Assembly (NCBI RefSeq): GCF_000196175.1
Contig: NC_005363.1
Location: 1,612,001 to 1,676,000, forward strand
Direction of reading: 5' to 3'
DNA: 64,000 bases
DNA from: Bdellovibrio bacteriovorus HD100
Lineage (GTDB): Bacteria; Bdellovibrionota; Bdellovibrionia; Bdellovibrionales; Bdellovibrionaceae
The translations under genes were made by a program, and so were the position numbers. Shown piece after piece: positions 29,693 to 31,613 of the stretch (positions are counted from its first letter, which is position 1; each line of letters starts with the position of its first letter). The notes beneath the pieces are model-generated. The model saw only the letters and a program-made list of their open reading frames with translations, ran no database searches and had not been told where the DNA came from.

Positions 29693-29790
29693 CCGAGCAA
29701 TCTATCGGGGGGCGAAGTAGGCATCAAACATATAAAGCCACTCGGGTTAATTTTATGTTCGTTTCGGAGCGGCGACCCAAAAGGTCTAGT

Positions 29791-29810
29791 ATTTACATAT
29801 AATTTACATA
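29791..29810. repeat. Tandem ATTTACATA direct repeat
   Basis: ATTTACATA occurs at 29791-29799 and again at 29802-29810, an 11-bp period, about one helical turn. It lies in the 293-bp gap between the nitronate monooxygenase gene and the HTH gene and could belong to a promoter for either. Confidence 0.4.
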
Positions 29811-29889
29811 TACATTGACCAAAGCTAGACTGTGGAAATAGAGTTTCTAAGACAGATTCAGTTTGTTCCCTCTAAAAATACCAATTACG

Positions 29890-29971
29890 TCTACTTTTAA
29901 GTAGATAATTTATACCTATAGGTCTATCTAAAAATAGACGATATGTTGTATTATATCTATCTATAGATAGA
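29890..29971. promoter_or_regulatory. Three palindromic operators at exact 33-bp spacing
   Basis: Three 16-bp sites share TCTA(n8)TAGA: TCTACTTTTAAGTAGA (29890-29905), TCTATCTAAAAATAGA (29923-29938) and TCTATCTATAGATAGA (29956-29971). The first has 7-bp perfect arms and the last is a perfect 16-bp palindrome. The centres are exactly 33 bp apart, about three helical turns, so bound dimers would lie on the same DNA face. The array ends 14 bp before the GTG of the HTH gene. Autoregulation by that HTH protein is the natural reading. This is inferred, not shown. Confidence 0.8.
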
Positions 29972-29985
29972 CGAATGGGGGACTT

Positions 29986-30456
29986 GTGAAATCCAAAACC
30001 GCAAAATTGAGAAGAGCTCAATTGGACCGGCAGTTTTATGCGGCGCAGGGAATTGGTGCCTTAAAGACGCCCAAAACGGGTTGGGTGCGCGAAATCCGCA
30101 CCGCCCTGGGGATGTCGATGAATGATCTGGCCACTCGTTTGGGAGTCATCAAACAGCGAATCGAAGGGCTTGAAAAGAACGAGGCGGCAGGCACCGTCAC
30201 GCTGGAGTCTTTAAGAAAGGCGGCAGAAGCCATGAACTGCGAATTCGTTTATTACTTTGTCCCTAAGCAGGGGCTGCAAAAGACCTTGGAGGCTCAGGCC
30301 CTTAAAGTTGCCGATGAAATCGTCAAATCCAGTGAACACTCGATGAGTCTTGAATTGCAAGCGACGTCCAAATCCGCACAAAAAGCGCTTACCGAAGAAA
30401 TTGCCCAAGAGTTGTTGCGCAACGAAGATCGCCGTATCTGGAGCCGGAAAAAATGA
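29986..30456 (+). CDS. XRE-family regulator, mobile mystery protein A
   Basis: 156 residues, starting with GTG behind tggggga. A helix-turn-helix covers about residues 33-60 (REIRTALGMSMNDLATRLGV and IKQRIEGLEKNE). The N-terminal TAKLRRAQLDRQF and the pairing with a Fic protein match the family named mobile mystery protein A, found with protein B in scattered genomes and often on mobile DNA. The stop shares ATGA with the Fic gene. It probably represses its own operon through the upstream palindromes and may act as the antitoxin-like partner. Confidence 0.87.
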   Translation: MKSKTAKLRRAQLDRQFYAAQGIGALKTPKTGWVREIRTALGMSMNDLATRLGVIKQRIEGLEKNEAAGTVTLESLRKAAEAMNCEFVYYFVPKQGLQKTLEAQALKVADEIVKSSEHSMSLELQATSKSAQKALTEEIAQELLRNEDRRIWSRKK

Positions 30457-31040
30457 AAATCCCAGACATCCCCGGAGCCACACCTTTGGATGATGAGACC
30501 TTGCGTGGTCTGATCCCGGGCTTGACCACTCACGGGGAGCTGGATGAATTTGAGGCGGCCAATATCGCGCGGGCCATTCTGTGGGCCGAATCCAGCAGGT
30601 CTTTGAAAAAGGATCTGCTAAGCCTGACCGGGCTGAAGCGGCTGCATCAGAAGATGTTTGAGGACACCTGGCGTTGGGCCGGGGACTTGAGAACTCGGCA
30701 AACCAACATAGGTGTGTCGCCGCTGTCGATTCAGAGTGATATGGCTATTCTTTTGGGTGATATCAGCTACTGGCTGCAGAATCAGACTTTCTCAGTCGAA
30801 GAAATTGCCATCCGTTTTCATCATCGTCTTGTGTATATTCATCCCTTCCCGAACGGCAACGGGCGTTGTGCACGATTGGCGACGGATCTATTTCTGAAGC
30901 AGCAAGGGTATTCTGGTTTTACCTGGGGGCGCGCCAGTCTGGCCTTGGCGGGGCACTTGCGCAAAGAATATATTCGTTGTCTAAAGTTGGCGGATAAAGC
31001 AGGGGAGTATGGCCCCCTGTTAAATTTTGCCAAGAGCTAA
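30453..31040 (+). CDS. Fic-domain protein, mobile mystery protein B
   Basis: 195 residues. The Fic core motif HPFPNGNGRCARLATD lies near residues 129-144, preceded by the conserved RFHHRLVYI helix. Fic proteins normally transfer AMP or another nucleotide part to target proteins. The acidic residue of the usual HxFx(D/E)GNGR motif is Asn here, so catalytic strength or chemistry may differ. It is coupled by ATGA overlap to the HTH protein. The pair resembles a toxin-antitoxin unit. Confidence 0.88.
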   Translation: MKIPDIPGATPLDDETLRGLIPGLTTHGELDEFEAANIARAILWAESSRSLKKDLLSLTGLKRLHQKMFEDTWRWAGDLRTRQTNIGVSPLSIQSDMAILLGDISYWLQNQTFSVEEIAIRFHHRLVYIHPFPNGNGRCARLATDLFLKQQGYSGFTWGRASLALAGHLRKEYIRCLKLADKAGEYGPLLNFAKS

Positions 31041-31292: not shown

Positions 31293-31613
31293 ATGAAAAG
31301 AAAACGAATTCCCACCCAAAAAGAGTTGGAAGATAATTTTTCAAGCTGGAAGTCCGTCAGTAAAGAAAAAGTTGCCGCAATCAATGCTCGGAACGAAGTT
31401 TTAAGACGTGAAAAAGAAAAGAAAGAAGCAAAGTTTACGGCGCGATTAACACAAGCGGACTTTGAAGGTTTTAAGGCGGTTGCAGAAAGAAAAGGCATTC
31501 CTTATCAAACTCTTTTGGGGTTTGTGATTCATGCCTATGTGCAAGGAAGTCTCGTCGATGTCGAAGAAATTCGTAAAGTATTTCCAGCTCTAAAACTTAA
31601 AAAAGAGGCTTGA
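31293..31613 (+). CDS. Ribbon-helix-helix (CopG/BrnA-like) protein, orphan antitoxin-like
   Basis: 106 residues. A basic N-terminus (KRKRIPTQKELEDNF) and a charged middle lead to a C-terminal RHH-like segment, FTARLTQADFEGFKAVAERKG followed by IPYQTLLGFVIHAY, near residues 49-83. This pattern fits CopG-family antitoxins that normally pair with BrnT or RelE-like toxins. No toxin gene is present on either side: a Fic gene lies upstream and a convergent DUF296 gene downstream. The palindrome at the promoter suggests autorepression. Confidence 0.72.
   Translation: MKRKRIPTQKELEDNFSSWKSVSKEKVAAINARNEVLRREKEKKEAKFTARLTQADFEGFKAVAERKGIPYQTLLGFVIHAYVQGSLVDVEEIRKVFPALKLKKEA

Follow-up and report, generated by a model that had tools for sequence, protein, structure and literature searches.

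Three evenly spaced palindromes upstream of the mobile mystery A/B genes of Bdellovibrio bacteriovorus: a putative self-regulatory operator whose pitch is kept across phyla while its letters change

Immediately upstream of the gene for mobile mystery protein A, a Cro/C1-type helix-turn-helix (HTH) protein of Bdellovibrio bacteriovorus HD100, stand three palindromes at a regular 33-bp pitch. Judging from sequence comparisons, this array appears to be a real, conserved, self-regulatory operator, which probably serves the operon formed by A and its neighbour B (HTH–Fic) and would lie over the promoter of that operon and hold neighbouring repressor dimers in fixed contact. What is new here is that the spacing is conserved over phyla while the recognition letters and the recognition helix change together. 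We found no description of operators of the mobile mystery family in the open-access literature, a body of text that leaves most subscription journals outside. The elements of the locus, numbered along the 64-kb stretch of HD100 DNA that was analysed (the window), are the following:

29889–29906, no strand assigned: operator site 1, GTCTACTTTTAAGTAGAT, centre at 29897/29898, first of three in register at 33-bp pitch
29907–29921, no strand assigned: linker between sites 1 and 2, 15 bp, fixed in length, letters not conserved
29922–29939, no strand assigned: operator site 2, GTCTATCTAAAAATAGAC, centre at 29930/29931, in the 33-bp register
29940–29954, plus strand: linker between sites 2 and 3, containing the -10-like hexamer TATTAT at 29949–29954
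29955–29972, no strand assigned: operator site 3, ATCTATCTATAGATAGAC, centre at 29963/29964, in the 33-bp register
29986–30456, plus strand: mobile mystery protein A (TIGR02612, HTH_3), Cro/C1-type HTH, presumed autorepressor/antitoxin
30148–30159, plus strand: codons I55-K56-Q57-R58 of A, start of the recognition helix (predicted at 56–68), I55 and K56 co-varying most with the half-site letters
30343–30360, plus strand: codons M120-x-L-E-x-Q125, a C-terminal motif of A that hardly varies and may contact B
30453–31040, plus strand: mobile mystery protein B (TIGR02613, Fic PF02661), Fic-domain protein
30840–30875, plus strand: Fic active-site motif HPFPNGNGRCAR of B, intact as read directly, conserved in the family

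Direct reading of the window confirmed the geometry on which the original prediction was built. The three TCTAn8TAGA palindromes begin at 29890, 29923 and 29956, the spacing from centre to centre is exactly 33 bp, and the array ends 14 bp before the start codon, these being the bases between the last 16-mer and the GTG of A at 29986. On most arms the symmetry runs one base further, giving GTCTAn8TAGAC-like palindromes of 18 bp (GTCTACTTTTAAGTAGAT, GTCTATCTAAAAATAGAC and ATCTATCTATAGATAGAC), and the window holds no fourth copy of TCTAn8TAGA (0.33 expected). That such regular phasing exceeds chance, as had been claimed, was borne out both by shuffles and by uniqueness in the genome. Three TCTAn8TAGA sites were reached by 0 of 100 shuffles of the whole window, and 20,000 dinucleotide-preserving shuffles of positions 29693–29985 gave three sites in none and two sites in 9. 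Pattern searches of the whole 3.78-Mb genome for paired sites returned an exact 33-bp-spaced pair only at the array itself (the overlapping pairs 1–2 and 2–3), the next-best matches carrying 3 mismatches in 16 letters.

We then asked how far this arrangement extends among 120 family loci, using as controls 36 loci with unrelated HTH genes that were analysed like the family loci. The family set spans the home phylum, that of Treponema porcinum, and plasmids of alpha- and gammaproteobacteria. Exact TCTAn8TAGA sites occurred in 12 of the first 76 loci, all close relatives; the poor conservation that this exact-letter search suggested was overturned by analyses of lag and palindrome register that fix no letters. 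Upstream regions resembled themselves at a lag of 33 bp (at least 13/18 identity) in 62 of 76 loci, any other lag being reached in at most 13, and the control HTH loci showed no 33-bp peak. A pitch score for three palindromes that share one half-site of any letters, searched over pitches of 20–49, peaked at 33 for 63 of the 90 home-phylum loci and for 9 of the 14 plasmid loci. Mean consensus scores at pitch 33 (41.0 for the home phylum, 38.6 for plasmids) were well above those at other pitches, whereas the 36 controls scored 31.1 at 33, no higher than elsewhere, and seldom had 33 as their best. With both pitches left free, 184 of 240 family intervals fell at 31–34 bp, compared with 8 of 72 control intervals, figures to be read with the caveat that placing sites by maximal score inflates their similarity, in the identically handled controls as well. 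The comparison included 60 arrays less than 70% identical, and, with A clustered at 50% identity, both pitches stay at 32–33 in 21 of 41 clusters. The upstream DNA has thus diverged too far for the recurrent pitch to be put down to common ancestry alone.

Around this rule there is some latitude. About three sites are usual, and a fourth slot up- or downstream matches in roughly a quarter of the loci, against a background of 5%. In several lineages the pitch shifts by 1 bp, above all in the Treponema group, which combines 32 and 33 bp; pitches of 32/32 or 32/33 replace 33/33 in its loci L001–L006, L107, L109 and L112 and in L138, L139, L142 and L144. In L036, L042 and L051 the sites are of a very strong GGTGCn8GCACC type, two apparently being strong and the third, near the start codon, weak or displaced. 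One candidate, G000:302115, has letters identical to a site of L021 and was rejected because it stands alone, at the 3' end of a different gene, and is not part of an array. The comparison of upstream regions from other genomes carrying the A/B pair, in which the original prediction had expected the same spacing, returned 32–33 bp again, although with different site letters; and the search for homologous loci devoid of palindromes, which would have spoken against an operator, found that most B-containing loci have them at a 33-bp-type pitch in other letters. The array accompanies A in 92 of 104 loci with B and in 8 of 15 without B (p = 0.003), a contrast confounded by the fact that the B-less loci represent more distant A lineages. 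The latter include L053, L054, L135 and L148–L151, as well as L006 and L113, which still carry the array; the lower frequency may reflect a role of B in the array or a different A lineage.

The pair has the same neighbours as in HD100 in two close genomes and occupies a different location in other members of the genus, which indicates that the array and the genes travel together. A small gene at 31293–31613, between B and the next conserved gene, has no family match; it is present in L008 and absent from the same place in L009, such that the right edge of A/B differs between close relatives. In phages, the operon region had no DNA match, and viral contigs gave one weak protein match.

The site letters vary by lineage (GTCTA, GTATA, GGTGC, ATCAG, AAGG, TTATGTA and others), and particular residues of A go with particular half-sites: IKQ[RN] pairs with GTCTA, GHGS or SHGS with GTATA, [HQ]HSS with GGTGC, RPQT with ATCAG, TPQT with AAGG, TQPR with TAAC, GKNS with GGTCA and SRNQ with GTATC. 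Identity of the recognition residues predicts half-site similarity with a partial Mantel correlation of 0.205 (null maximum 0.109 in 1000 permutations), an effect of modest to moderate size that controls for the rest of the A protein. When all alignment columns of A were scanned for half-site tracking, K56 and I55, neither singled out beforehand, ranked first and second; the two residues form the start of the predicted recognition helix (56–68). Since the half-site letters track the recognition helix of A, the array is tied to A itself, and the reading that each site would be recognized by an A dimer through this helix is well supported. The assignment of the array to the adjoining HTH protein, as originally proposed, likewise gains support from the family-wide pitch together with the co-variation of letters and helix.

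Promoter elements are found within the same register. TTGACA and TATAAT are enriched in register across the family arrays, and consensus promoters lie, according to lineage, around site 2, around site 3, or so that the -10 immediately precedes site 3. The HD100 array yielded no good -35 and no promoter of consensus quality; its promoter may consist of the -10-like TATTAT between sites 2 and 3, which would fit the third arrangement, and the relatives L011–L013 have TATAAT at about the same place. Because the position of the promoter varies by lineage while the pitch stays constant, the promoter seems not to set the pitch. In L030 and L073, a consensus or near-consensus -35/-10 pair straddles site 3 and ends some 10 bases short of the start codon of A, a position suggestive of a leaderless or nearly leaderless transcript.

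What, then, fixes the distance? The original prediction placed the three dimers on one face of the DNA, and of this claim the spacing of nearly three turns stands, whereas the alignment itself is imperfect: 33 bp corresponds to 3.14 turns at 10.5 bp per turn, leaving successive sites rotated by about 50 degrees. If helical phasing alone set the pitch, three turns bringing the sites to the same face with no fixed-length contact between dimers, the dominance of 32–33 bp, near three turns, would be accounted for. Spacings of two turns (10 of 240 family intervals versus 16 of 72 in controls) and four turns (16 of 240 versus 5 of 72), which share that face, are however not enriched, and 33 bp is 1.5 bp off three exact turns; we regard this explanation as unlikely, and the absence of such enrichment indicates that distance is conserved, not helical face alone. 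Direct repeats at exact pitch also look as if a 33-bp unit had recently been duplicated in tandem, the spacing then being incidental to replication slippage, and the array might have started from an ancient duplication. Against a recent one, the linkers are 0.41 identical where composition predicts 0.36, the sites reach 0.73, and the pitch recurs with wholly different site letters, all of which makes it most improbable. With duplication, helical face and promoter each unlikely to set the pitch, a fixed-length contact between dimers would be the explanation left.

The identity of the binder and the level at which the palindromes act can be weighed in the same way. A/B genes are often found on plasmids, some of them beside ParA/ParB genes, as might be expected if a host regulator or a plasmid partition or replication factor bound the sites and A merely adjoined them. 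Yet it is A's own recognition helix that shows the best co-variation with the half-sites, and the array is unique to the A locus in the genome and accompanies A in unrelated genomic places, so that a foreign binder is very unlikely. A role of the palindromes as hairpins of a leader RNA, with control by attenuation, is the least credible of the explanations considered: the strand does fold better than its shuffles (z -3.5), as would any array of palindromes, but sites 1 and 2 lie upstream of the -10-like element and would both be left untranscribed, no Rfam match was obtained, and the co-variation with a DNA-reading helix would go unexplained.

Both genes belong to their namesake families, A scoring 224.5 bits against TIGR02612 (curated cut-off 122.6) and the adjoining B 311.4 bits against TIGR02613 (curated cut-off 124.4), and the start codon of B overlaps the stop of A (ATGA). 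An AlphaFold2 model of A, made with 7 sequences, was confident in the HTH only (mean pLDDT 58). In the C-terminal region, the motif M-x-L-E-x-Q is kept across phyla (M in 113, L in 114, E in 114 and Q in 113 of about 120 aligned A proteins); it is near-invariant although the remainder of this region is variable. This motif is a candidate site for contact with, or inhibition of, B.

Two genes with the DNA-binding protein first and a palindromic operator over the promoter (in HD100, a -10-like match only) form the layout of a type II toxin–antitoxin operon. Compared with the active Fic motif HxFx(D/E)GNGRxxR, HPFPNGNGRCAR has N in place of D/E, and we counted it as an active motif. The inhibitory motif (S/T)xxxE(G/N) was found in none of 74 B proteins, from which an inhibitor acting in trans is expected. 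It does occur in the C-terminal half of A in 6 of 120 family members; HD100 A has no match, its S119-M-S-L-E123-L having no G or N after the E. As A mostly lacks the motif, the pair falls outside the definition of FicTA class I (PMC3667792). A is nonetheless presumed to be the antitoxin of the Fic protein B, and the pair would constitute a toxin–antitoxin-like operon in which A may bind and repress cooperatively, perhaps in the switch-like way originally suggested, and B may be toxic.

In the self-regulatory operator that we favour, each 18-bp palindrome would be bound by one A dimer, and three dimers 33 bp apart would cover the promoter, the -35/-10 pair of which straddles site 2 or 3 in relatives, and exclude RNA polymerase as long as A is plentiful. 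Neighbouring dimers would touch, either directly through the C-terminal part of A or by way of B, thereby preserving the pitch and making binding cooperative, and repression would follow the A:B ratio, as in type II toxin–antitoxin operons. Over time, the site letters would drift and the helix of A would drift along with them while the distance stays, each lineage thus holding an insulated copy of the same machine. A more specific version, possible though doubtful, is that the Fic enzyme B bridges A dimers on successive sites into a rigid, repeating nucleoprotein unit, the array serving as a ruler by which the operon is repressed and Fic kept inactive; the 32–33-bp unit would then be the conserved trait and the letters exchangeable.

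For two families that are both still named "mystery", the fixed pitch supplies a testable structural prediction (a repeat unit of 32–33 bp) and makes it possible to predict binding sites from the sequence by itself. The natural pairs of helix and operator on one geometry make up a catalogue for changing repressor specificity with cooperativity kept, and the family offers repressor–operator pairs that are insulated from one another.

Among known systems, the closest and best-studied analogue of the A array appears to be hipBA of E. coli, whose HipB is a Cro/C1-type autorepressor that binds several TATCCn8GGATA sites cooperatively (PMC3920265, PMC3376134). The two share the fold class, a gene upstream of the toxin gene and 18-bp palindromes whose half-sites stand 8 bp apart; A nevertheless gives a weak score of 22 bits against the model of the HipB-coupled subfamily (cut-off 71.65) and has about 70 residues after the HTH, unlike HipB. 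On the K-12 genome (L187), we measured the centres of the HipB sites at -125, -97, -58 and -30, which gives four sites at pitches of 28/39/28 and a HipA-type kinase as partner, where A–B has three sites at 33/33 and a Fic partner. In the account of Makarova et al. (2009; PMC2701414), neighbouring Xre and Fic/Doc genes are predicted toxin–antitoxin pairs with 22 occurrences, to which A–B, with a gene for an Xre-type HTH protein adjoining a Fic/Doc gene, seems similar; the word "mystery" is absent from the main text, and its passages on Xre–Fic/Doc mention neither operators nor spacing. In FicTA class I (VbhA–VbhT, PMC3667792), likewise, a Fic gene with an active-type motif is immediately preceded by a small gene, and the Fic protein has no inhibitory helix motif of its own, as in B, but A is an HTH protein that mostly lacks (S/T)xxxE(G/N) (6 of 120). 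As described for Xre–RES of P. putida (PMC12204516), the toxin holds the Xre repressor in a complex with two DNA-binding sites and higher-order operator binding, which resembles what is proposed for A–B in that a toxin partner can hold repressor dimers for higher-order DNA binding; the description differs in having a single imperfect inverted repeat, with a second site proposed, and an NADase toxin, and mentions no multi-site pitch shared between phyla. Finally, RptR of phage-defence islands (PMC12255303) is an autorepressor whose operon promoter is overlain by three repeats that are kept from genome to genome. These are 6-bp palindromes within 9-bp repeats, the letters of which are conserved, whereas the A array varies its letters and preserves its distance.
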